A DNA stretch of 64,000 bases, taken from NCBI RefSeq assembly GCF_900109995.1, contig NZ_FOCB01000001.1, positions 124,001 through 188,000 on the forward strand, read 5' to 3'. The notes beneath the pieces are model-generated. The model was given only the letters and a program-made list of their open reading frames with translations, was not told the DNA's origin and did no database searches. Below, piece by piece: positions 13,211 to 25,033 of this stretch. How positions within the stretch are numbered: the first letter of the stretch is position 1; every line of letters begins with the position of its first letter. The translations under genes were made by a program, and so were the position numbers. The stretch is from Pseudomonas sp. ok272. Its GTDB lineage: Bacteria > Pseudomonadota > Gammaproteobacteria > Pseudomonadales > Pseudomonadaceae.

Positions 13211-14503
13211 ATGACTGGCCACCCGGCAAGCCCCAGCGATACCCCCGCAGCCAAGCGCACCGCAGAGCTCGAAGAGCTGCTGATCGATGCCGAGGCCGAC
13301 GACGAGCTCGTCCAACAAACCCCGCCGGCCTTGCATCGCCCGTGGCTATTGCTGCTGGGGCTGGTGCTGGTGGCGTTGAACCTGCGCCCGGCGTTGTCGA
13401 GCATGGCGCCGTTGCTCAGCGAAGTGTCGAATGCCCTTGGGCTGTCGGCGGCCAAGGCCGGTTTGCTGACCACCTTGCCGGTCCTGTGCCTGGGGCTGTT
13501 CGCGCCGCTGGCGCCGATCCTGGCGCGGCGTTTTGGTGCCGAGCGGGTGGTGCTGGGGATTTTGCTGACGCTGGCGGGCGGGATCATCCTGCGCAGTTCG
13601 TTCGGTGAGGTGGGCCTGTTTGCCGGCAGTATCCTGGCGGGCGCCAGCATCGGGGTGATCGGTGTGTTGCTGCCGGGTATCGTCAAGCGCGACTTCGCCA
13701 AGCACGCCGGCACCATGACCGGTGTCTACACCATGGCCCTGTGCCTGGGGGCGGCGATGGCAGCGGGGGCGAGCGTGCCATTGAGCGAGCACTTCGACCA
13801 GCGCTGGGCCGCGGGCCTGGGGTTCTGGGTGTTGCCGGCGCTGGTGGCGGCGATCTTCTGGTTGCCGCAAGTGGGCCCGAAACACAGCGGCCACAACGTG
13901 GCTTATCGGGTACGTGGATTGCTGCGTGATCCGCTGGCTTGGCAAGTGACCTTGTACATGGGCCTGCAGTCGTCCCTGGCCTACATCGTGTTTGGCTGGT
14001 TGCCGTCGATCCTGATCGACCGTGGCCTGACGGCGACCCAGGCGGGGCTGGTGCTATCGGGCTCGGTGATCGTGCAGTTGACCAGCTCCCTGGCCGCGCC
14101 CTGGCTGGCCACGCGGGGCAAGGACCAGCGCCCGGCGATTGTCGTCGTCATGCTGATGACCCTGGGCGGCCTGTTCGGCTGCCTGTTCGCGCCCATCGAT
14201 GGGCTGTGGGGCTGGGCGATTCTGCTTGGGCTGGGCCAGGGCGCGACCTTCGCCCTGGCGCTGACCTTGATCGTGCTGCGCTCGCGCGATGCCCATGTGG
14301 CGGCCAACCTGTCGAGCATGGCCCAGGGCTTTGGTTACACCCTGGCGTCCATGGGGCCGTTCGCGGTCGGCGTGGTTCATGACTGGACCGGTGGCTGGGG
14401 CGCGGTGGGCTGGATCTTCGGGCTCATTGGCCTGGGCGCGATCATCGCCGGCCTGGGCGCCGGGCGTTCGCGCTACGTGCAGGCCACCTGCGAAAAGCTC
14501 TAG
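13211..14503 (+). CDS. MFS transporter of the CynX/NimT family
   Basis: This inner-membrane transporter of 430 residues has about twelve hydrophobic helices, beginning with PWLLLLGLVLVALNLRPALSSMAPLL. That NLRPALSS motif is typical of the CynX/NimT (cyanate/2-nitroimidazole) branch. The hydrophilic N-terminus of about 45 residues (rich in Glu/Asp) is longer than usual. The start is uncertain: ATG 13187 would overlap the GntR gene by 11 bases, and ATG 13211 does not. Its stop overlaps, by the TAG/CTA bases at 14500-14503, the stop of the convergent fimbrial operon. The substrate is unknown; control by the adjacent GntR regulator is likely. Confidence 0.87.
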   Translation: MTGHPASPSDTPAAKRTAELEELLIDAEADDELVQQTPPALHRPWLLLLGLVLVALNLRPALSSMAPLLSEVSNALGLSAAKAGLLTTLPVLCLGLFAPLAPILARRFGAERVVLGILLTLAGGIILRSSFGEVGLFAGSILAGASIGVIGVLLPGIVKRDFAKHAGTMTGVYTMALCLGAAMAAGASVPLSEHFDQRWAAGLGFWVLPALVAAIFWLPQVGPKHSGHNVAYRVRGLLRDPLAWQVTLYMGLQSSLAYIVFGWLPSILIDRGLTATQAGLVLSGSVIVQLTSSLAAPWLATRGKDQRPAIVVVMLMTLGGLFGCLFAPIDGLWGWAILLGLGQGATFALALTLIVLRSRDAHVAANLSSMAQGFGYTLASMGPFAVGVVHDWTGGWGAVGWIFGLIGLGAIIAGLGAGRSRYVQATCEKL

Positions 14504-15150
14504 AGGTAGACCACCTCCAGCGTCGCCGAACCGTCGAGCAGCACCTCGTGGCTCAAGTCCAGGTTCTGTTTGGCGTTGATCACCGTTTCCACCGTGACCG
14601 TGCTGCTCAAGGCCTGGATCGCGGCGGGGCCGGCGGTGCTGCCGTCCTGGTCGGTGAAGCCCAGGTAGCTCTTGGCGCCAATGTCGATGCGATTGCGGTT
14701 GGCCGTGCGCCAGGCAACGCCGCCGGTGGTGGACTCGGTGCCGTACACCGGGTTCATGGCATCGGCGCTGGTTTGCGTCGGGTCGAACGTCATCGAGTAC
14801 AGCCCGACCTTGTTGCCGCTGCCGTCCAATCCCAGGCCGTAGTAGATCTCGCTGTTGACCGTGGCCGTGCCGTCGCGGTTGTCGCCCATGCGCAGGGCGA
14901 AACGACTCGGGCCGGTGCAGCCGAGGGTCAGCACCAGCGTCCTGACCGGCAGGCGTGTGCCTTTGTCGAAATTGAGGTCCTGTTGGGAAATCTTGCCGTA
15001 GTCGATCACCCCGCCACTCGACAGTTGCGGGGTGCACGCCGTCGGGGTGATCTGCCCGTGCAGGCCCAGTTCGGTGGTCGAGGCCGCCAGGGCCGTCGAG
15101 CCGACGGTCCAGAGCGGGAGGGTTGCCAGTGCCAGCCAACGTCGGTTCAT
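14500..15150 (-). CDS. DUF1120 pilin-like fimbrial subunit (last gene of operon)
   Basis: This secreted DUF1120 protein of 216 residues is predicted to be a fimbrial subunit. The signal peptide MNRRWLALATLPLWTVGSTALAA is followed by the donor-strand-like TTELGLHGQITPTAC and then GGVIDYGKIS, two Cys (second in LTLGC), DNRDGTA and YYGLGLDG. The C-terminus DLSHEVLLDGSATLEVVYL ends in Tyr-Leu, as in all seven paralogues here. The ATG at 15150 has AAGGA eight bases upstream. It is the last gene of the minus-strand operon. Confidence 0.85.
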   Translation of the reverse strand: MNRRWLALATLPLWTVGSTALAASTTELGLHGQITPTACTPQLSSGGVIDYGKISQQDLNFDKGTRLPVRTLVLTLGCTGPSRFALRMGDNRDGTATVNSEIYYGLGLDGSGNKVGLYSMTFDPTQTSADAMNPVYGTESTTGGVAWRTANRNRIDIGAKSYLGFTDQDGSTAGPAAIQALSSTVTVETVINAKQNLDLSHEVLLDGSATLEVVYL

Positions 15151-15172
15151 CACAGCGTCCTTTGCTTGAGGG

Positions 15173-16321
15173 TTACAGGTAAATGATTTCAAGGGTGCCC
15201 GAGCCGTCCAGCACCACCTCGGTGCTCAGGTCCAGGCTGTTCATCGGTGCGAGCATCGCCCTGACGTTGACCAGGCCGGACAGGTGCTGGATCGCCGTGG
15301 GCCCGGCCACACTGCCAGGCACGTTGGTGAAGCCCAGGTAGCTGTTGGCGCCAATGGGGATCGGGTAGCTGCTGGAGGTGCTCCAGGCCGCGCCGGAGGT
15401 GGTCGAGTCGGTGCGATAGACCTGGGGCAGGGCATCGGCGCTGAGGTCGACGGGGTCGAAGTACAGGTAGTAGCGGCCGATCTTGTTCGCGCTGCTGTCG
15501 ACCCCCAGGCCAAAGGCGGTTTCGTCCACGCCGCCGGTGGCCGAGCCGTGGCGATTGTCCTGCATGAGCAGGGCAAAGTGCGTGGGCCCATCGCAACCGA
15601 TGTTCAGCATCAGGCTGCGCGAGGCCAGCGCCGTGTCGTGCTCGGCGTTGAGGTTCTTGGCCCACATCCGACCAAAGTCCACCACGCCATTGTTGGACAG
15701 CGTCGGCTCGCACGCGGCGGGGGCGAAACGGGCGTGCAGGCCCAGTTCGCGTGAACGCCCGGTGGCCGGGCTGTCGATCAGCCCGCTGACGTCCCAGGTC
15801 ACGGCGTCGCGCACTTGCGCGGCGTCCTCTTGTGCCCAGGCGCTGACCAGCAGTTGCGCGGAGAAGCTGCTGCCCTGCGCCGGGCTACCGTCCGCCAGCG
15901 GCACGATGGCGTGCTCGGGGCGCCAGGTCAGTGTGCTGGCGCTGAGGCTCGGCGCCTGCCCGCTGCCGGCGAGCAAGCCCAGCTCCACGGCCTTGCCATC
16001 GAGCACCGCGTCGCTGACCTGTACGTGGTAGCTGCCGCGATCGGTGAAGCGCAAGCGTTCGCCAAAGGCCGCCAGGCCACGATAGAACAGGCTCATGTCG
16101 GTGGGGTGCGGGCAGTTGAGGGTCAGGCTCACGCGCCGCTCGCCGAGCAAGCGTTCGCGAGCCTGGGTGCTGTGGATCGCCCGGTTCATCAGGCCGAAAT
16201 CGAGCTGCGTCTGGCTGAGGGAGAGCCGGCACTCATCCGCCAGGGCCGGTGCCGGCGATAGCGCCGCCAGCCCGAGCAGCGCCAGGCAAAGGGTCAGCCT
16301 CGGGATGTGATCGGTGTTCAT
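15173..16321 (-). CDS. Two-domain DUF1120 protein, candidate fimbrial tip adhesin
   Basis: At 382 residues this is nearly twice the length of its paralogues. The signal peptide ends at ALA. The mature protein then starts directly with DECRLSLSQTQLDFG, so the first Cys has no donor strand before it. That first domain (about 30-200) is a Cys-containing beta-rich module (LTLNC, YHVQVSDAVLDG). A second, ordinary DUF1120 domain follows with its own donor-like segment (ELGLHARFAPAAC) and the Tyr-Leu end (TLEIIYL). A subunit unable to donate an N-terminal strand is expected at the fibre tip. The start overlaps the usher stop by ATGA, implying coupled translation. The tip role is inference. Confidence 0.8.
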   Translation of the reverse strand: MNTDHIPRLTLCLALLGLAALSPAPALADECRLSLSQTQLDFGLMNRAIHSTQARERLLGERRVSLTLNCPHPTDMSLFYRGLAAFGERLRFTDRGSYHVQVSDAVLDGKAVELGLLAGSGQAPSLSASTLTWRPEHAIVPLADGSPAQGSSFSAQLLVSAWAQEDAAQVRDAVTWDVSGLIDSPATGRSRELGLHARFAPAACEPTLSNNGVVDFGRMWAKNLNAEHDTALASRSLMLNIGCDGPTHFALLMQDNRHGSATGGVDETAFGLGVDSSANKIGRYYLYFDPVDLSADALPQVYRTDSTTSGAAWSTSSSYPIPIGANSYLGFTNVPGSVAGPTAIQHLSGLVNVRAMLAPMNSLDLSTEVVLDGSGTLEIIYL

Positions 16322-18735
16322 GGTGCGGTTCCTCCGGGGCTCAGGCAACGTGCCGGCGCGGTTTCGTAATACACCTGCGGGTCGGCTTTTGACGGCAGTT
16401 CGTAGTGCAGTTCACAGCGCGCCAGTCCCGGCGCCGTGACCCACAGCCGTCGGCCATCCAGGACGTTGGGCAGGAACACTTGGCTGCCTTGCTGGACCAG
16501 CGTGACGAACTCGCCATCGGCGGTGCTGACGGTGGCGCCGCGTGGCAGCGGGGTGCCGGTTTCAGTGGTGACGTCCAGCAGTGCGCGGCGGGTCAGGGCG
16601 ACTCCGAAGTCGACGCGGTCCACCGCCCCGCGCCCGGCGGATATGACGGCCAGGCCGTTGTTGATATCGGCGTTGCGGGGCAGCGAGCGGGTCTCGACTT
16701 CCACCGGGCTGCGGCCGTAGGCGGCCACTTGCGCGACCACCGCCTGGCCCTGGCCGTCGGTCCAGACCGGACCGCTCGGGGTGCTGAGCTTGACGCCCTG
16801 CATCTCGCCCACCGACACCAGGGCGAAGGTGTCGCGCACCGGGTACGGCGACAGGCTGACGCCGCCGCCATGCACCACCACCGCGCCGCGAGCGCCGCCC
16901 TGGTAGCTGGAGCGTTCGGCATCCGAGCGGGTGTAATTGAGGTCCAGTTGGGTGTAGCGCGGCAGCAGCGAAACCCCCAGCGTCGACTCGACTGCTTGAT
17001 CGCGACTGTCGTGTTCGACGCTGACCCGGTAGTTGAATTGATCGTTGACCTGCTCGTTCACGCCGGCCCCGATGCGGTGCTCGCCGCCCGAGTTGCGCAC
17101 CCAGGTGCGGCCCCGGCGGTTTTCCCCCAGCGGGATGCCAAGGGTCAGGTACAGGGCGTTGTCATTGCGTTGCTGGCCACTGACTTGGCGCTCGGCGGTG
17201 GCGGAAATCGACACGCCGCGCACGCTGGTGCCCCAGGAGGCGAGCGCGCGGCTGCTGCTGTCGTTGTTGAAGTCGCTGGAGCGCGAGATCCCGGCGCTGA
17301 ACGCCCCCAGCCACGGGTGTGACCAACCCAGCGAGAGGCTTTGTTGATCGCGGTAGCGCGAGCGTTCCCGGGAATGGTCGTCGGTGGCGTAGGCGGTGTC
17401 GTCCAGTTCCCGGTAGCCTTCGCTGCGGTGGGACGCGGCCGCGGTGATTGACCAGCGGCTGCCCAGCAGTTGGGACAGCGCCAGGTCGGTCTGCACCCCG
17501 CGCTCGCGTTCCCAGGTGTAGGCGTCCGCGACCTGGCTGGTGAGTTGCAGTTGCGCGTCTGGCCAGGGCTGCAGCCCCAGGCTGACGCCGGTCGAGCGGT
17601 AGTCGTTGGCCACCAGCCCGCCGAGGCTCAGGCTGGTGCGCGTGTTCAGCGCGCCGCTCCAGCCGGCACTGAGCACCCACGGGTTTTCGCCCGGGGAGTC
17701 GCCGATGCGGCGAACCTGTCCCGCCCCCAGCGAGTAGCCGGCGGCCGGCTGGCCGAGGCCGAGCATGGCGGCGGGCACGGTAAAGCGGCGTTCGTCGCCG
17801 GAGGATTCCTTGACGGTGACTTCGACGTCGGAGCGGCCATTGAGGCGCCGCACGTCGGTCAGGGAAAACGGCCCGGCGGGGACCACCGTGGAGTGGATCA
17901 GCGCACCGTTCTGCCGCACCTCGACCTGGGCCGGGCTGTTGGCGATGCCGTCGATGGTCGCGCCTTGCGCCTGGTCTTGCAGCGTTTGTTCGGTGAACAG
18001 CTGGACGCCGTTGATCTGCGCCCCGGACGAGACCGGGTTGTAGAGGCTGATCTGCCCGGCCTGCAACACCGTCTGGTGCTCGGCAAAAGTGCGTTGGGCG
18101 TAGGCTTCCAGGTGGGTGCTGCTGGAACGGTCGTCCTGCCAGGTCTGCACCTGGCGGCTGCGCACGATCCAGTCACCGGCGTTGAACCCGACTTCGGTGT
18201 TGGCCGAGCCGAACCGGTTGCTGTTATCGCCGTAGTGGTTGTACAGGCCCGTCAGGTCATAGTTGAGCAGGCCCGCGACCCCACCGCTCTGGTAGCCGCT
18301 GACATCGCGTTGCTGCGGGCGCAGCGCGTCGGTGGGCACCACCAGGGTCACGCTGAGGCTGGCGGGGTCTTGTTCGACCAGGGTTTGTGGGTACTGGGCG
18401 AGAAACCCGTGGCAGTCGCCGTCCGGCACCGAGGGCTGCGGCACGATCAGGTTGGCGGCGTCCAGTAGGGTGCGGTCGAAGCACAGCGCGCCCTGGTTGT
18501 CGAAGCGCGCGTCGAGCCGTCCGCGTCGCTGGCCGTTGACGATCAGGCTCACGGCGTGACTGCCGGCGGTGAAGCGCGGGGCGTCCAGCAGCAGGTGCGC
18601 GAGCGCCGGGTCGATACCGCGCTGGTGCAGGGTTTGTGCGTCGAAGGACGGTGTGGCCCTGGCTTGCGACGGGTTCACGTGCAGGGCGATGGCCAGGGCC
18701 AGTAGCAGCGGCGTGGTGCGCTTGGCGTGGGGCAT
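16318..18735 (-). CDS. Fimbrial outer-membrane usher (FimD/PapC family)
   Basis: This outer-membrane assembly platform for chaperone-usher fibres has about 805 residues. It has a signal peptide (ending SQARA), an N-terminal periplasmic domain (FDAQTLHQRGIDPALAHLL), and a 24-stranded barrel region with GLLNYDLTGLYNHYG and the plug-flanking GPFSLTDVRRLNGRSDVEVTVKESSGDERRFTVP. C-terminal domains include ATVSTADGEFVTLVQQGSQVFL and the final Cys pair (LARCELHYELPSK...ARCLSPGG). The start is uncertain: ATG 18735 is favoured by the signal peptide, while ATG 18759 or GTG 18771 are in frame. It is the only usher in the operon, so it should serve all seven subunits. Confidence 0.93.
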   Translation of the reverse strand: MPHAKRTTPLLLALAIALHVNPSQARATPSFDAQTLHQRGIDPALAHLLLDAPRFTAGSHAVSLIVNGQRRGRLDARFDNQGALCFDRTLLDAANLIVPQPSVPDGDCHGFLAQYPQTLVEQDPASLSVTLVVPTDALRPQQRDVSGYQSGGVAGLLNYDLTGLYNHYGDNSNRFGSANTEVGFNAGDWIVRSRQVQTWQDDRSSSTHLEAYAQRTFAEHQTVLQAGQISLYNPVSSGAQINGVQLFTEQTLQDQAQGATIDGIANSPAQVEVRQNGALIHSTVVPAGPFSLTDVRRLNGRSDVEVTVKESSGDERRFTVPAAMLGLGQPAAGYSLGAGQVRRIGDSPGENPWVLSAGWSGALNTRTSLSLGGLVANDYRSTGVSLGLQPWPDAQLQLTSQVADAYTWERERGVQTDLALSQLLGSRWSITAAASHRSEGYRELDDTAYATDDHSRERSRYRDQQSLSLGWSHPWLGAFSAGISRSSDFNNDSSSRALASWGTSVRGVSISATAERQVSGQQRNDNALYLTLGIPLGENRRGRTWVRNSGGEHRIGAGVNEQVNDQFNYRVSVEHDSRDQAVESTLGVSLLPRYTQLDLNYTRSDAERSSYQGGARGAVVVHGGGVSLSPYPVRDTFALVSVGEMQGVKLSTPSGPVWTDGQGQAVVAQVAAYGRSPVEVETRSLPRNADINNGLAVISAGRGAVDRVDFGVALTRRALLDVTTETGTPLPRGATVSTADGEFVTLVQQGSQVFLPNVLDGRRLWVTAPGLARCELHYELPSKADPQVYYETAPARCLSPGGTAP

Positions 18736-18846
18736 GGCTTCGCCACCACGGTAAGTCATTACTGTGTTCACAGGGTGTGCTCGGATGATGAACGTGGCGT
18801 CTACCGGGTCGTCACGGTGTAGTTGCCGGGGGCTGGGACGTGGGTA

Positions 18847-19557
18847 TTAACGGTCGGCCACGGTGAGGGGCGCGTCATAGGGTGCGACGGCGAATCCGTA
18901 GACGGTGGCCGGCTGCATGCGTACCGCAGTGGCAACGCCGGGGGGCGCGCTCATGTGCAGGGTTTCGCCGGGCAGGATGTAGGTGCGCGGCAGCATGGCC
19001 TTGCCGTTCCCCGGCAGCAGTTGCAGTTCCTGGGCGGTGCGGACCACGTAGGGCGTGGCGTTTTGCACGCGCAATTGGCCCTTGTCCAGCGTCCAGCTCA
19101 GCCCGGTCCAGGGCGTACGGTTGGTGGCCAGGCCCTTGGGGTGCAGGATCACGGGCAGGTTCTGGCGCACCGTGACGCCGACGCGGGCGTGGCCATCCTT
19201 TGCCGCAGGACGACCCTGGGGCATGCCTTCAAAGATCACGCGCTTGAGGCGCTGGGTTTTCAGCGGCTCCTGGGTTTGCAGGATGAAGCGCACCAGTTGG
19301 CTTTTGCCGGGCTCGACCCGCGCCAGTGGCGGGGTCACGAACAGCAGGGGCTGGGTGTCCTCGGGAATGTCCTGGAGGGTGACGTGCAACAGCGCCAGGT
19401 TGGTGTCGGTGTTGGTGACGGACACGGCGGCTTCGCCATCGGCCTCTTCGACAATCACCACGGAGGTGTCCGGGACCATGCCATCGGCCTGGACCAAGGG
19501 GCTGGCCAACAAAGTCAGGGCGCAGGCGAAGCCGCCCAATGTTGCGTAAATCGTCAT
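18847..19557 (-). CDS. Periplasmic fimbrial chaperone (PapD/FimC family)
   Basis: This is a two-domain immunoglobulin-like chaperone of 236 residues. A signal peptide (to VQA) precedes GMVPDTSVVIVEEADGEAAVSVTNTD, the G1-donor strand region VEPGKSQLVRFILQ, and PQGRPAAKDGHARVGVTVRQNLPVILHPKGL, the typical domain linker. It should fold each DUF1120 subunit by donor-strand complementation and deliver it to the usher. One chaperone serves seven subunits here. It lies between two groups of subunit genes (five upstream; usher, tip candidate and one more subunit downstream). Confidence 0.92.
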   Translation of the reverse strand: MTIYATLGGFACALTLLASPLVQADGMVPDTSVVIVEEADGEAAVSVTNTDTNLALLHVTLQDIPEDTQPLLFVTPPLARVEPGKSQLVRFILQTQEPLKTQRLKRVIFEGMPQGRPAAKDGHARVGVTVRQNLPVILHPKGLATNRTPWTGLSWTLDKGQLRVQNATPYVVRTAQELQLLPGNGKAMLPRTYILPGETLHMSAPPGVATAVRMQPATVYGFAVAPYDAPLTVADR

Positions 19558-19578: not shown

Positions 19579-20205
19579 TTAGAGGTAGCGCAGGTCCAGC
19601 ACAATCGCACCGTCGAGTGGGACTTCCTGCTTGAGGCTCAGGTTGTTCGCCGGGCTGATGGACGTGTCCACCCGCAGCGTGGTGACCAAGTGAATGATCG
19701 GCTCCGGCAACGGGCGGCCGGGACGGGCGAAGCCCATCCAGTGGCGTGGGTAAATGTTGGGTTCCGGCGACCAACTGGTGCCGTTGTTGTAGGTGGTCAG
19801 CGACAACATGGGCTGGCCGTCCCCCAGCGGATTGCGAAAGGACAAGGCGACGGAGCCCAGGCGTTCGTCGGGGGCGTGGGGGTTTTTGCCCAGGCCATAA
19901 AAAAAGTCCGGGGCCAGGGAAGAGTCTTCCCGGCCGTCCAGGCCAACGAGTGTGAACAGCAACGGGGCGCTGCAGTTCACCTCCAGTACCATCAGTTGCC
20001 CGGGCATGACCGTGAACTCATCGCGCTTGAGGCTGCTGGCGGGGATCCGGCCATGGTCGATGACGCCGTTGGCAGACAACCCAATCAGGCAGGCGCTGGG
20101 GGTGATGTTCCCGGTGGCGCTCAATTGCGTTTCGCTCGCCGCCAGCAGGTGTGGCGCGAGCAGGGTCAAAACCAGTGTGGCCAGAAAGTGCGAGAACGTA
20201 TTCAT
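19579..20205 (-). CDS. DUF1120 pilin-like fimbrial subunit
   Basis: This secreted protein has 208 residues. The signal peptide MNTFSHFLATLVLTLLAPHLLA is followed by SETQLSATGNITPSACLIGL, a weaker match to the donor strand since GN replaces GK. NGVIDHGRIPASSL and a second Cys (LEVNC) follow. The loop DNRxGS of the paralogues reads DGREDSS here, and the C-terminus is IVLDLRYL. It is the most divergent of the single-domain members and lies directly upstream of the chaperone gene. It may be a specialised or terminating subunit, but this cannot be told from sequence. Confidence 0.82.
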   Translation of the reverse strand: MNTFSHFLATLVLTLLAPHLLAASETQLSATGNITPSACLIGLSANGVIDHGRIPASSLKRDEFTVMPGQLMVLEVNCSAPLLFTLVGLDGREDSSLAPDFFYGLGKNPHAPDERLGSVALSFRNPLGDGQPMLSLTTYNNGTSWSPEPNIYPRHWMGFARPGRPLPEPIIHLVTTLRVDTSISPANNLSLKQEVPLDGAIVLDLRYL

Positions 20206-20311: not shown

Positions 20312-20941
20312 TTACAGGTAATTGATTTCTAAGGTGGCCAAACCGTCGATGGGTTGCTCGTCGGTCAGGTCCAGTTGATCGGCCCGGGCAATCGCGCCTT
20401 GCACCACCAGGTTGGTCGTCAGGTTGGCGATCGCCTTGGGCGACCATTTCCCGCCGGTCTGGTCACCGAAACCGGCCCAGACCGCTGGAGGCAGCGTCCC
20501 CTCACCGAGTAGACCCCAGGTAATGCCCTCGTCGACGGACTGGAGAATGTTGGTCTCCAGCGAGTCGGCGATGGCGCTGTTGAGGTACAGGGCGTAGTAG
20601 CCCAACTGCTGGTTGCCATTGATCAAGCCCAGGCCGTAGGCCCCGGGTTGGGAGGCGCTGCCTGAGCGATTGTCGGCGCCGCTGACACTGAACAGTGTGG
20701 GGGCGTCGCAATCCACGGCCAGTTGCAGGGTGACCTCGGGCAGTGCGGTCGGCGTGGCCTGGTTCAAGTCTTTGGCGGAGATCTTGCCGTAGTCCACCAC
20801 GCCGTTGCGTGACAGGCTGGGCGTGCAAGAGCTGAGGACAATCTTGCCGGTGACGCGCAGGTCGACGGTCGAGGTCGCCAGTGCCGAGGTACTGGTGGCC
20901 AGCAAGGCGGTGGCGGTCAGCGCGTAAAACGTTTTGTTCAT
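20312..20941 (-). CDS. DUF1120 pilin-like fimbrial subunit
   Basis: This secreted DUF1120 protein has 209 residues. The signal peptide ends at ALA, then TSTVDLRVTGKIVLSSC forms the donor-strand-like segment (alternating V, L, V, then GK) before the first Cys. NGVVDYGKISAKDLNQ, LAVDC, DNRSGSASQ and AYGLGLINGNQQLGYYAL are shared with its neighbours. The C-terminus is LATLEINYL. The start at 20941 is preferred over an upstream in-frame codon because it begins the signal peptide MNKTFYALTATALLATS. Confidence 0.85.
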   Translation of the reverse strand: MNKTFYALTATALLATSTSALATSTVDLRVTGKIVLSSCTPSLSRNGVVDYGKISAKDLNQATPTALPEVTLQLAVDCDAPTLFSVSGADNRSGSASQPGAYGLGLINGNQQLGYYALYLNSAIADSLETNILQSVDEGITWGLLGEGTLPPAVWAGFGDQTGGKWSPKAIANLTTNLVVQGAIARADQLDLTDEQPIDGLATLEINYL

Positions 20942-20980
20942 GGGGGCTGAGTTCCTTTCAGTGGGATGCATTCGCGGTGC

Positions 20981-21595
20981 TTACAAGTAGTTCAATTGCA
21001 CGGTAGTGTGCCCATCCATGGGGATTTCATCGGTGAGGGTCAGGCTGTTGGCATGGGCGATCAGGGTGTACAGCACCAGCTCGGCATCGAAGTCCTTGAC
21101 GGCAATCGGTGTCAGGCCAGTGCCCTGGGCGACGGCGAGCAAGAGCTGGTGGCCCAGCACGGAGCCGGGATGCCAGGTCGCACCGCCGTCTTCAGAGATG
21201 ATGGTGCGTGCCTCAGCCCCGTCGGCGACCGGGTGGTACAGGCCGAATCCGACGCTACCGAGTTTCTCATCGTTGGGCGTCATGCCCAGGCCGTGCCAGT
21301 CATCGTGGATGGCGGAGGAACCTGAACGATTGTCCTGGGTGGTCAGGTTGAACAGCGTCAGGCCTTCACAGCGCACGCTCAGTAGCAGCGACTGCCGGGG
21401 CAGTGAGGTGGGCTGTTCTGGATCAAGTGTCTTGGCCGACATCTTGCCGTAGTCGACAGTGCCCCCACCGGAGATCATCGGCTCACAGGCCGTGGGGACA
21501 ATGGCGCCGCGCAGCGAAAGGTTCGTGGCGCTGTCGGCAAACACCGCCGGGGCGACCAGTAGCATCATCAGAAGGCGTGGGACAAAAGCGTTCAT
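20981..21595 (-). CDS. DUF1120 pilin-like fimbrial subunit
   Basis: This secreted protein has 204 residues and follows the same plan: signal peptide ending VFA, DSATNLSLRGAIVPTAC before the first Cys, GGGTVDYGKMSAKTL, LSVRC at the second Cys, DNRSGSSA, GLGMTPNDEKLGSVGFGLY and the C-terminal TTVQLNYL. The glycine of the donor strand is followed by Ala rather than Lys. It sits in the run of five subunit genes that opens the operon. Confidence 0.85.
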   Translation of the reverse strand: MNAFVPRLLMMLLVAPAVFADSATNLSLRGAIVPTACEPMISGGGTVDYGKMSAKTLDPEQPTSLPRQSLLLSVRCEGLTLFNLTTQDNRSGSSAIHDDWHGLGMTPNDEKLGSVGFGLYHPVADGAEARTIISEDGGATWHPGSVLGHQLLLAVAQGTGLTPIAVKDFDAELVLYTLIAHANSLTLTDEIPMDGHTTVQLNYL

Positions 21596-21639: not shown

Positions 21640-22284
21640 TTACAGGTACAGCACCTCAACGGTGGTTGAACCGTCCAGCGTCACTTCGTTGTTCAGCGTC
21701 AGGGAGTTAGCGGGGGCGATACCGGGATTGACCTCAATATCGACGGTCAGGTTTTGCAGAGGATGGGGTGCCCAGCCTGTGCTGATGTCGAAGTGGCCGA
21801 GGGCGATCCAATAATTGGGCAGTACGGAATCGTCATCGAAAAGCTCACGCCATGTCGTGCCGCTGTTCGTTGAATGCAGCAAGGTTGATGGTTGGTCCGC
21901 ATCGGCGACGGGGTTCATAAAACTCATGTAGTAGAAACCCAGCTTCTCGCTCTCGTTGATCAAGCCCAAGCCGTAAGTGACTGCGGGTTGATAGGACGAT
22001 GTGCCTGCTCGATTGTCGGTGAGCCCAAGCGCAAGCAAGGTTTTTGCCTCACAGGTCACCGCCAGCGGAACTTTTCGTTTACCCAGGTAGGTATTCGCCG
22101 CTTGGTTCAAGTCTTTAGCCGAAATTTTCCCATAGTCGATAACGCCGGCATTGGGCAGCGTGGGCGTGCACGCGCTCGGCGTAATTTTGCCGGTGATGGT
22201 CAAGTCCACGGTGCTGGCCGCGAAGGCAGACGGTGCGCAGGTCAGAAGCAGTGCAGTGGCAAGGGTAGGGTAGAGCTTGTTCAT
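21640..22284 (-). CDS. DUF1120 pilin-like fimbrial subunit
   Basis: This secreted protein has 214 residues: signal peptide (MNKLYPTLATALLLTCAPSA, cut after AFA), STVDLTITGKITPSAC, AGVIDYGKISAKDL, LAVTC, DNRAGTSSY, YGLGLINESEKLGFYYMSF, and the C-terminus TTVEVLYL. Its first 30 or so codons are nearly identical, also at DNA level, to those of the preceding gene (22316-22936). This points to a recent duplication or gene conversion. The central parts differ. Confidence 0.85.
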   Translation of the reverse strand: MNKLYPTLATALLLTCAPSAFAASTVDLTITGKITPSACTPTLPNAGVIDYGKISAKDLNQAANTYLGKRKVPLAVTCEAKTLLALGLTDNRAGTSSYQPAVTYGLGLINESEKLGFYYMSFMNPVADADQPSTLLHSTNSGTTWRELFDDDSVLPNYWIALGHFDISTGWAPHPLQNLTVDIEVNPGIAPANSLTLNNEVTLDGSTTVEVLYL

Positions 22285-22315: not shown

Positions 22316-22936
22316 TTACAGGTACTTGATGTCCAGCGTGGCGGAACCGTCGAGCGTGACCTCGTCGGTGAAGTCGAACTGGTCGGCGCGAGCGATCTGG
22401 GTACTCACTTGAAAGTCCAGGCTCAGGTCTTTCACGGCCAGCAAGGTTGTACCGTCATCGGTGGCTGCGACGCCCCAAATCCCCTCCAGCTCCCAGTAAG
22501 AGCCGGCATGCCAGGTGCTACCGCCGTCGTTCGACACAATGGGTTGAACGGGGGTGGTGTCAGCGATCATGTTCAACGGGTCCAGGTAGAAACGCCCCAG
22601 CTTTTTATTGCCATTGACCAGGCCCAGGCCGAAATCGCTTGACTGGGTGGATGAGCCGGCGCGGTTGTCCGTGGGCTTGATCGCAAACTGAGTGTGCGCC
22701 TCGCAGTTGACCCTGAACTGCAAGATGACTTTGGGTAAGCTCGTCGAGTTGTTCGGCCTCAGGTCTTTGGCCGAGATTTTGCCGTGATCGACCACGCCAC
22801 CGCCCGATAGGCTAGGCGTGCAGGCGCTCGGCGTAATCTTGCCGGTGACGGTCAAGTCCACGGTGCTGGCCGCGAAGGCGGACGGTGCGCAGGTCAGAAA
22901 TAATGCGGTAGCAAGAGCTGGGTAGAGTGTGTTCAT
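22316..22936 (-). CDS. DUF1120 pilin-like fimbrial subunit, first gene of the operon
   Basis: This secreted protein of 206 residues is promoter-proximal and therefore the best candidate for the major shaft subunit (inference). The donor-strand segment STVDLTVTGKITPSAC matches in layout the FimG strand DVTITVNGKVVAKPC: alternating hydrophobics, then GK, then the first Cys. GGGVVDHGKISAKDL, FRVNC, DNRAGSSTQ, FGLGLVNGNKKLGRFYL and the C-terminal LDIKYL follow. No strong ribosome-binding site precedes the ATG (ACACCCTCTA). Upstream lies a 13-base poly-C tract in transcript sense. Confidence 0.87.
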   Translation of the reverse strand: MNTLYPALATALFLTCAPSAFAASTVDLTVTGKITPSACTPSLSGGGVVDHGKISAKDLRPNNSTSLPKVILQFRVNCEAHTQFAIKPTDNRAGSSTQSSDFGLGLVNGNKKLGRFYLDPLNMIADTTPVQPIVSNDGGSTWHAGSYWELEGIWGVAATDDGTTLLAVKDLSLDFQVSTQIARADQFDFTDEVTLDGSATLDIKYL

Positions 22937-23085
22937 TAGAGGGTGTTCCGGTGTCAGGCGACTGACGAGCGAGCGCGCTCTTTAGGCGTCGATCCGCGTC
23001 GGTGTCGCGCGTCAGTTTTAAAGGTCGGTCACCCTGTGACAGGGCGGATGTCTGCACCCCCGAAGCGGTGCGCGGCGAAAGATAC

Positions 23086-23098
23086 GGGGGGGGGGGGG
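23086..23098. repeat. 13-base G homopolymer (poly-C on the fimbrial coding strand)
   Basis: Thirteen consecutive G residues on the plus strand, 150-162 bp upstream of the first fimbrial start codon. A run of this length is prone to slipped-strand mispairing. Bordetella fim2/fim3 promoters carry a comparable poly-C tract that drives phase variation. Confidence 0.95.
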
Positions 23099-23106
23099 CC
23101 GGGGAA

Positions 23107-23209
23107 ATACAACAATTACGACAATGCTTGAGTGGCTTCGATAGGACGGGTAATTGTCGGAAACTTGGTGTGGCGGCGTAGGACGATTGCTGTTTCGTAG
23201 TTGTTGTAT
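23107..23209. repeat. Cluster of inverted repeats upstream of the poly-C tract
   Basis: ACAATTAC (23112-23119) pairs with GTAATTGT (23150-23157), CGACAAT (23119-23125) with ATTGTCG (23153-23159), and ATACAACAA (23107-23115) with TTGTTGTAT (23201-23209). TAGGACG occurs twice in direct orientation. These are plausible regulator half-sites immediately upstream of the tract. Confidence 0.7.
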
Positions 23210-23287
23210 GGCCATCTGAATGTTTACCGCTGTAGCGTGCGCCCTCCATCACACGCACACAGACAAGGGTGCGCGCGGGTGCCTTCA

Positions 23288-24190
23288 ATGCGCTGTCGAA
23301 TGCAGTCATGTGGGCGGCGCCAGGCGCATATCCCCCGTGTGCGTCTCGCCCACAGCAAGGTGACAACGGCATTGAAGGCGCTTTCCTGCAACCCCCCACG
23401 ACCCGGCCCGACCCTCTTCGCGGCCCCACCACGGCATTGGCGCAACCGCGTGGTGCTGGTGGTGGAGGACCATGCCTGCTATCGACTGTTGATCGCCTGC
23501 TATCTCGATACCCTGGGGCTGGCCCACGAGGTGGTTGAAAACGCTCAGTTGGCGCTGGACGCCCTGGAGCGCCGGCACTTTGATCTGCTGATCAGCGATT
23601 GCCAGATGCCGGGCATGGACGGCATCGCGCTGGCCCGCGCCGTACGCCAGCGCGAGCGTGGCCTGGGGGTGGCGCGGGTGCCGTTCATTGTCCTGACGGC
23701 GGCCCTGGATCAGGAACGGGCCGCGCGCGCGCTGGCCGTCGACATCGATGCCTGGATGAGCAAACCCCTGACGCTGCAACGCCTGCAGCCGGTGTTGGAA
23801 CACTGGCTGCCCGGGACGGATGCGCTGACCGCGGGCCAGGCACTGGCAGCGTTCGAGCACGGCGTTGATCAACCCACGCGCGCCAGCCTGATCCAGCTCT
23901 TTGGTTCTGCCGAGGTGGTGGAGCGTCTCTTGTCCAGCTTGCTTGAAGAAACCGCCAAGGACCGAGCCGCGCTGGCCCTCGCGTTGGTGCGCCGGGACCC
24001 GGTGCAGGTGTTGGAGCACTTGCATCGCCTGGTGGGCAGCATGGCCTTTCTCGGTGTCCCGGGACTGGAGCGCCAGAGCGTTGGCTTGATCGGTGCGGTG
24101 CGTCGCTCGGGGATTGCCGCCAACCGCGTCTCACTGGAGCGCTTGCTGGATGATTTGGAACACTGTCTTGACGATCTGGCGCGGATTTGA
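23288..24190 (+). CDS. Receiver-Hpt phosphorelay protein
   Basis: This protein of up to about 300 residues has no kinase domain. A receiver domain starts near VVLVVEDHACYRLL (acidic pocket E-D) with phosphoacceptor Asp104 in LLISDCQMPGMDG, T in IVLTAA and K in MSKPL. A C-terminal Hpt domain follows, with LHRLVGSMAFLG carrying the likely phosphohistidine His246; the usual Lys two residues before Gly is Val. The start is uncertain (ATG 23288 or 23300, or a GTG/TTG nearer the receiver), because the first 50 residues look non-conserved. The order REC-Hpt resembles the tail of hybrid kinases such as BvgS or EvgS cut off from its sensor. It is divergent from the fimbrial operon and 207 bp upstream of an RcsB-like regulator, to which it probably passes phosphate. 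Confidence 0.85.
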   Translation: MRCRMQSCGRRQAHIPRVRLAHSKVTTALKALSCNPPRPGPTLFAAPPRHWRNRVVLVVEDHACYRLLIACYLDTLGLAHEVVENAQLALDALERRHFDLLISDCQMPGMDGIALARAVRQRERGLGVARVPFIVLTAALDQERAARALAVDIDAWMSKPLTLQRLQPVLEHWLPGTDALTAGQALAAFEHGVDQPTRASLIQLFGSAEVVERLLSSLLEETAKDRAALALALVRRDPVQVLEHLHRLVGSMAFLGVPGLERQSVGLIGAVRRSGIAANRVSLERLLDDLEHCLDDLARI

Positions 24191-24397
24191 CGCCGGTTTT
24201 TTTGGACGCGGTGGCGAGCCGTTTCCTGACTAAAGTCTATTTTTAATCTGTAGGTGTTTTCTCTTTATTTTGTGGGAATTGGAGTTTGGCCCAAGGAACA
24301 TTGGCGCTCGTAAATCGGGAGGATTCATTGACGGTTGTAGGGCAAAGTCTGTGGGGGTATTTTGCGCGAATTCAATTTGCCATCATGAGTGGGTCCA

Positions 24398-25033
24398 ATG
24401 CTTCGTGTGATTATTGCTGACGATCACCCCCTTATCCGTATCGGGCAGAAAGTCGTGATCGAGGCGAACCAAAGATGCACGGTCGTGGGGGAGGCTGATG
24501 GCCCGGATGCGCTGCTGGCGTTGTTGGCGTCCACGCCCTGCGATGTCCTGGTCACGGACTTCGCCATGCCGGGTGACCGGCACAGCGACGGCTACGGCTT
24601 GCTGAGCCTGCTGCGGCGTCAATACCCGCGGTTGCCGGTGATCCTGGTGACCATGTTTGCCAACGTGGCGACCCTCAGGGCTTCGTTCGCCCATGGCGCG
24701 CAGGCGATTGTGGCCAAGAGTGGCGCGGCCCTTGAGTTGCCGTTGGCGATCAAGGCGGTGAGCGAGGGGCAGACCTTCATCAGCCGGTGCTTGCGTGACC
24801 AACTGAGTGAGGCGGGCATCGGCGATCAATCGCGCGAGCCTGAGTTGTCCTGCAAGGAGCGTGAGGTGGTCAGGATGCTTGCCAGCGGCATGACCGTCAG
24901 CCAGATTGCCGCACGGGTCAATCGCAGCATCTCGACCATCAGCAAGCAGAAGAGCACGGCCATGAGCCGCTTGTGCATCTCCACCGACGTGGACTTGTTC
25001 GCCTACGCCCGGGCCAGCGGTATGGTGCCTTAG
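24398..25033 (+). CDS. RcsB-like response regulator (NarL/LuxR family)
   Basis: This response regulator of 211 residues has a receiver with the acidic pair D8/D9 and phosphoacceptor Asp54 (DVLVTDFAMPGDRHSDG), followed by a LuxR-type helix-turn-helix (LSCKEREVVRMLASGMTVSQIAARVNRSISTISKQKSTAM, about 147-190). Segments MPGDxxxDGxxLL, IVAKSGAALELPLAI and NRSISTISKQKSTAMSRL closely follow E. coli RcsB, so it belongs to that branch rather than a generic NarL one. No partner kinase is present; the adjacent REC-Hpt protein is the likely donor. It is the best candidate regulator of the divergent fimbrial operon. The 207 bp before it is A+T-richer than its surroundings and may hold its own promoter. 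Confidence 0.9.
   Translation: MLRVIIADDHPLIRIGQKVVIEANQRCTVVGEADGPDALLALLASTPCDVLVTDFAMPGDRHSDGYGLLSLLRRQYPRLPVILVTMFANVATLRASFAHGAQAIVAKSGAALELPLAIKAVSEGQTFISRCLRDQLSEAGIGDQSREPELSCKEREVVRMLASGMTVSQIAARVNRSISTISKQKSTAMSRLCISTDVDLFAYARASGMVP

Follow-up and report, generated by a model that had tools for sequence, protein, structure and literature searches.

Gene content of the fimbrial locus

The window, by which we mean the whole 64-kb stretch of DNA that was analyzed, contains a fimbrial operon on the minus strand and a divergently oriented REC-Hpt unit on the plus strand. Searches against Pfam returned an usher (Usher, 287.9 bits), a chaperone (PapD_N, 69.1 bits), and seven DUF1120 proteins. 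Because usher, PapD-type chaperone, and pilin-fold subunits lie together, with the first DUF1120 protein predicted to be pilin-like, the operon was assigned to the chaperone-usher type. The features of the locus are as follows.

14500 to 15192, minus strand: last DUF1120 gene (start codon uncertain)
15173 to 16321, minus strand: two-part protein with a C-terminal DUF1120, likely the tip adhesin
16318 to 18735, minus strand: outer membrane usher (reading frame may begin at 18771)
18847 to 19557, minus strand: PapD-type chaperone
19579 to 20205, minus strand: DUF1120 gene 5
20312 to 20941, minus strand: DUF1120 gene 4 (reading frame may begin at 20971)
20981 to 21595, minus strand: DUF1120 gene 3
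21640 to 22284, minus strand: DUF1120 gene 2
22316 to 22936, minus strand: first DUF1120 gene, predicted pilin fold
23079 to 23084, minus strand: predicted -10 hexamer TATCTT
23085 to 23102, minus strand: 18-nt spacer CCGG-C13-G, separating box and -10
23086 to 23098, minus strand: C13 homopolymer (G13 on the plus strand)
23103 to 23124, minus strand: conserved box TTGTCGTAATTGTTGTATTTCC, predicted regulator site
23191 to 23209, plus strand: sibling box TGTTTCGTAGTTGTTGTAT in the promoter of the divergent REC-Hpt unit
23233 to 23238, plus strand: TAGCGT, a weak candidate for the -10 of the REC-Hpt promoter, 23 nt 3' of TTGTAT
23288 to 24190, plus strand: REC-Hpt gene (reading frame open from 23201, with its first in-frame ATG at 23288)
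24389 to 25033, plus strand: RcsB-like response regulator gene, its product predicted to bind the boxes

The first pilin shares 36-67% identity with its closest DUF1120 counterpart in related loci. The regulator is far more conserved, at 64-84% identity in Pseudomonas loci, as if the subunits diverged fast or were shuffled. Literature searches on DUF1120 yielded nothing beyond a cysteine database.

The C13 tract

The run of 13 identical bases reported by the sequence-only reading was confirmed at 23086-23098, about 150 bp upstream of the ATG of the first DUF1120 gene (22936); as for any long homopolymer, the assembled length of 13 may be a base or so off. Read on the coding strand, the order is box (TTGTCGTAATTGTTGTATTTCC), CCGG, C13, G, and TATCTT, the last of which ends 142 bp before the DUF1120 ATG. 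The tract is the only C/G run of at least 7 in the window, where 27 were expected from base composition and 14 from a first-order Markov model. The 5.29-Mb genome holds two C/G runs of at least 10; calculated with the base frequencies of the window, composition would give 73 and the Markov model 25. Runs of at least 13 are expected about 2.5 times per genome of this size by composition and 0.6 times by the Markov model, so tract length alone is indecisive and the argument depends on the position of the tract. The rarity attributed to such homopolymers was overstated as far as length alone is concerned.

The other C/G run of at least 10 in this genome is a C11 tract on contig C24 (175702-175712; positions 1501-1511 of locus L005). 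It sits between frames that by eye resemble a molybdopterin oxidoreductase and an ornithine carbamoyltransferase, and no box was found in the 3-kb stretch that contains it.

Promoter architecture upstream of the DUF1120 genes

A promoter common to related Pseudomonas consists of a 22-bp box (TTGTCGTAWTWGTTGTATTTCC), a C-rich interrupted spacer, and a TA[AG]ATT-like -10. Sites were defined as distinct 72-nt sequences with at most 5 mismatches to the box and its core letters fixed, and boxes continuing with CG or GG were assigned to the REC-Hpt type. This yielded 112 distinct DUF1120-side sites, of which 8 without a recognizable -10 (TA[AGT][AC][TG]T) were left out. Among the remaining 104, the window included, the spacer between box and -10 measured 18 nt in 97, 19 nt in six, and 17 nt in one. 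Counts based on 107 or 110 sites drew on fewer loci than the 112-site set. When all offsets from 5 to 49 were scanned in 110 sites, the -10 motif was encountered at 17 (one site), 18 (95 sites), and 19 (six sites) only; shuffled controls gave 0.08 per offset. The spacer of the window is exactly 18 nt long, 13 of these belonging to the C run.

TATCTT, earlier suggested as a possible -10, gains support from its fixed distance to the conserved box; it aligns with the TA[AG]ATT-like hexamers of the relatives and, together with the two bases preceding it, deviates from their consensus. The promoter scan detected no sigma-70 -35/-10 pair, and the promoter was therefore assumed to be activator-dependent. 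With the predicted -10 as reference, the box would occupy about -52 to -31, over the -35 region. The earlier proposal that tract length sets the distance between activator and polymerase agrees with this arrangement, in which the tract lies within a near-invariant spacer between the predicted activator site and the -10.

Directly 3' of the -10, the relatives share the motif CACCCC-N-AGAGGG. The corresponding stretch of the window (23054-23071, minus strand) reads GCACCGCTTCGGGGGTGC, likewise a sequence able to pair with itself. Folding of the leader RNA just past the -10 was inconsistent (z-scores from -2.5 to +0.9 in six sequences), and an Rfam search gave no match at E-values up to 1.

The divergent REC-Hpt unit

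On the REC-Hpt side, a TANNNT hexamer was found 22 nt after TTGTAT in 30/57 sites (control: 1.3 per offset), and 9 sites formed a smaller second peak at 40 nt. For the stricter pattern TANNTT, 26 of the 57 sites had a match at 22 nt (control: 0.4). The distance from TTGTAT to the -10 on the DUF1120 side is also 22 nt (4 + 18). Since this distance is equal on both arms despite different spacer sequences, it appears to be a property of the promoter type and not merely the shared descent of one spacer.

The REC-Hpt box points the opposite way, with the C13 tract 92 bp behind it, so that the tract cannot alter the spacing there and any joint variation could at most be indirect. Control of the REC-Hpt unit by tract length was accordingly rejected on geometry: the unit has a box of its own, and the tract is outside its box-to--10 spacer. 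The earlier suggestion that both units vary together thus found no support.

In seven of the related loci (L142, L143, L146, L149, L153, L154, and L190) the REC-Hpt protein matches over its Hpt part only (approximately residues 220-308), and the receiver domain seems to have been lost or to have diverged there.

The RcsB-like regulator and its co-occurrence with the box

The regulator scored 156.9 bits against the NCBIfam RcsB model, below the curated cutoff of 235, and is for this reason called RcsB-like and not an RcsB orthologue. RcsB is nonetheless the nearest of the NCBIfam models, and the best solved relatives of the protein are RcsB chains.

At 3 mismatches or fewer, the box was present in 68/398 genomes of the genus, and once in the genome studied here. 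A control in which the box pattern was read backwards matched approximately 32/398 genomes at up to 3 mismatches, and the genome studied here once. Single 3-mismatch matches may consequently be due to chance, and it is the spacing and the gene neighborhood that carry the argument. An RcsB-like protein (at least 59% identity) was encoded in 61 of the 68 box-positive genomes, including the one under study. For the other seven (G314, G207, G084, G042, G092, G073, and G353), no match to DUF1120, chaperone, usher, or REC-Hpt was detected near the fetched box (G042 has two box matches, and its neighborhood covers one), so these matches look like chance. Among box-negative genomes, four of 68 examined (out of 330) carried an RcsB-like protein at 58% identity or more. 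All four have a degenerate box with 4-5 mismatches, and in three of them a -10-like hexamer could be recognized by eye at 18 nt. From gene neighborhood and co-occurrence, we infer that the RcsB-like protein binds the boxes.

When named genomes were scanned for the RcsB-like protein, 71 loci were recovered, of which 69 belong to Pseudomonas, mostly the P. fluorescens group with some viridiflava, and two to Dyella. DUF1120, REC-Hpt, RcsB-like, and NTF2-like genes were found together in 63 of the 71, with DUF1120 divergent from the others. The remaining eight comprised four loci that lack REC-Hpt and keep the box, two cut by a contig end before DUF1120, and the two Dyella loci, which match the regulator only. 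Some of the 71 have no DUF1120-side box within 5 mismatches. In at least 15 loci (L134, L137, L144, L156, L160, and others) the RcsB-like and NTF2-like genes lay approximately 850-900 bp farther apart, leaving room for an extra gene.

Distribution of the tract among related genomes

A DNA search with the intergenic region in the 398 genus genomes returned the genome under study and otherwise mostly short matches with box and C-rich stretch at their center. No close match that would indicate a conspecific or sister genome was obtained among 398 genus, 95 relative, and 398 family genomes (overlapping sets), and searches of viral contigs revealed no relative. The best promoter match was from Pseudomonas sp. 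Irchel 3E20 (L127), with C8 and a 19-nt spacer.

Related spacers are 52% C and interrupted, and their longest C run is 8. Nine or more Cs within the 12 nt after an exact GTTGYATTYC occurred in one of the 398 genus genomes, namely the one studied here. As the tract was seen in no other genome of the 398, a conserved switch cannot be claimed. Spacing that was off by one base was found in 3/4 sites with C runs of 7-8 vs. 4/99 with shorter runs (p = 8e-4), where the cut of 7 was picked post hoc and the sites share descent; with the cut at 6 the p-value was 0.013. The excess of off-by-one spacing at C7-8 sites fits with slippage.

Discussion

We consider it reasonably probable that slippage of the C13 tract, within the near-invariant 18-nt spacer from the predicted RcsB-like site to the predicted -10, would switch transcription of the DUF1120 operon. 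The regulator on the box and the polymerase at TATCTT would need to be in register. Given that the C run supplies 13 of the 18 nt, slippage in the cell would shift the box relative to the -10, and gain or loss of a C would likely bring regulator and polymerase out of register and move fimbrial expression up or down. Thirteen Cs give precisely the conserved 18 nt, and the assembled state is therefore predicted to be ON; the present tract length presumably represents the conserved ON register. Seven of the 104 sites have 17 or 19 nt, and a step of one base may thus only modulate expression.

The closest parallel is provided by the BvgA-activated fim2, fim3, and fimX promoters of Bordetella, whose architecture was reportedly described by Chen et al. 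2010. As there, a monotonic C run is situated in the promoter of a chaperone-usher pilin (here a DUF1120 gene with a predicted pilin fold), between a response-regulator site, which in our case is predicted, and the -10. That this distance matters is suggested, at the level of sequence, by its constancy across sites. The likeness to fim2/fim3 noted by the sequence-only reading therefore gained in weight: the C run would occupy a length-critical spacer. The window differs in belonging to another genus, in having an RcsB-like regulator encoded beside the operon, and in its DUF1120 subunits. Its promoter also heads a whole operon, whereas Bordetella C-stretch promoters drive single subunit genes. 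We propose that the promoter would work like a Bordetella C-stretch promoter in its arrangement, and claim no membership by descent. The cup fimbriae of P. aeruginosa, which are under RcsB/PvrR and Roc control, likewise combine chaperone-usher fimbriae with an RcsB-type regulator and Hpt/REC relay proteins that adjoin or control them. To our knowledge they have no poly-C tract, and their subunits are not DUF1120 proteins.

In B. pertussis, deletion of one C from the poly(C) tract of the fim3 promoter abolished expression and Fim3 production (PMC10172299), and a review sentence in the same source attributes the defect to one C more or fewer. Tract lengths of 10 to 15 for fim2 and 13 to 18 for fim3 have been given, and the fimX transcript was 3.8-fold lower with C8 than with C7 (PMC1891110). 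One B. parapertussis fim3 promoter carries the interrupted tract C6TC3 (PMC1891110), so that related promoters with shorter or interrupted C tracts exist there as they do here. Indels in intergenic homopolymers have been proposed to mediate phase variation in P. aeruginosa hypermutators during experimental evolution (PMC8115180). This concerns the same genus in the wide sense, but the excerpt of that study names neither a fixed activator-to--10 spacer nor a fimbrial poly-C tract. Among the titles and abstract openings returned by literature searches, none dealt with a switch of this kind in Pseudomonas fimbriae, and a search on BvgA and poly-C tracts gave no result.

The main competing explanation is that the tract is a neutral by-product, in which substitutions and slippage acted on a C-rich spacer, selection kept the 18 nt, and promoter regulation involves no switching. 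We regard this as unlikely, though it deserves serious weight. It would account for the spacer having exactly the conserved length and for the confinement of the tract to one genome of 398. With spacers that are 52% C, the probability of a run of at least 13 is 3e-4 per spacer and approximately 0.03 across about 100 spacers (positional C frequencies from 93 related spacers), which is not negligible. Yet this genome is poor in C/G runs of at least 10 (2 vs. 25-73 expected), and its longest falls at this very place. Moreover, C13 is expected to slip appreciably, as such tracts do elsewhere (PMC1891110, PMC8115180), so that a length-critical spacer built of C13 would vary, whether adaptive or not.

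It is very improbable that the run is an assembly or sequencing artefact and in truth shorter or interrupted: homopolymers are prone to assembly error and the assembly is a 50-contig draft, but a random error would seldom hit the conserved 18 nt exactly. A frameshift switch varying translation, with the tract inside a coding frame (ORF 22812-23432, minus strand), is scarcely credible and was rejected. In the window this frame has no stop within the tract region, but over 198 nt it is open in just 7/110 sites, the window included; the ORF and the 5' end of the first DUF1120 gene overlap, and the aligned region conserves promoter-like elements instead.

Returning to slippage in the promoter spacer as our preferred reading, an evolutionary scenario can be put forward more tentatively, as one that may well prove wrong. 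The fimbrial promoter of the fluorescens group, served by a dedicated regulator and with its fixed-length C-rich spacer, would have been pre-adapted to slippage, and this species may have made it a switch, inventing the Bordetella C-stretch mechanism independently while its relatives kept the unswitched ground state. If so, poly-C spacing switches of fimbrial promoters would recur beyond Bordetella wherever a two-component activator depends on a C-rich spacer of fixed length. The roughly 100 related promoters that lack the tract serve as natural controls, and the step from a fixed spacer to a contingency locus would thus be open to direct study. For the organism itself, the tract would provide a simple bet-hedging switch for surface attachment in a fluorescens-group Pseudomonas.
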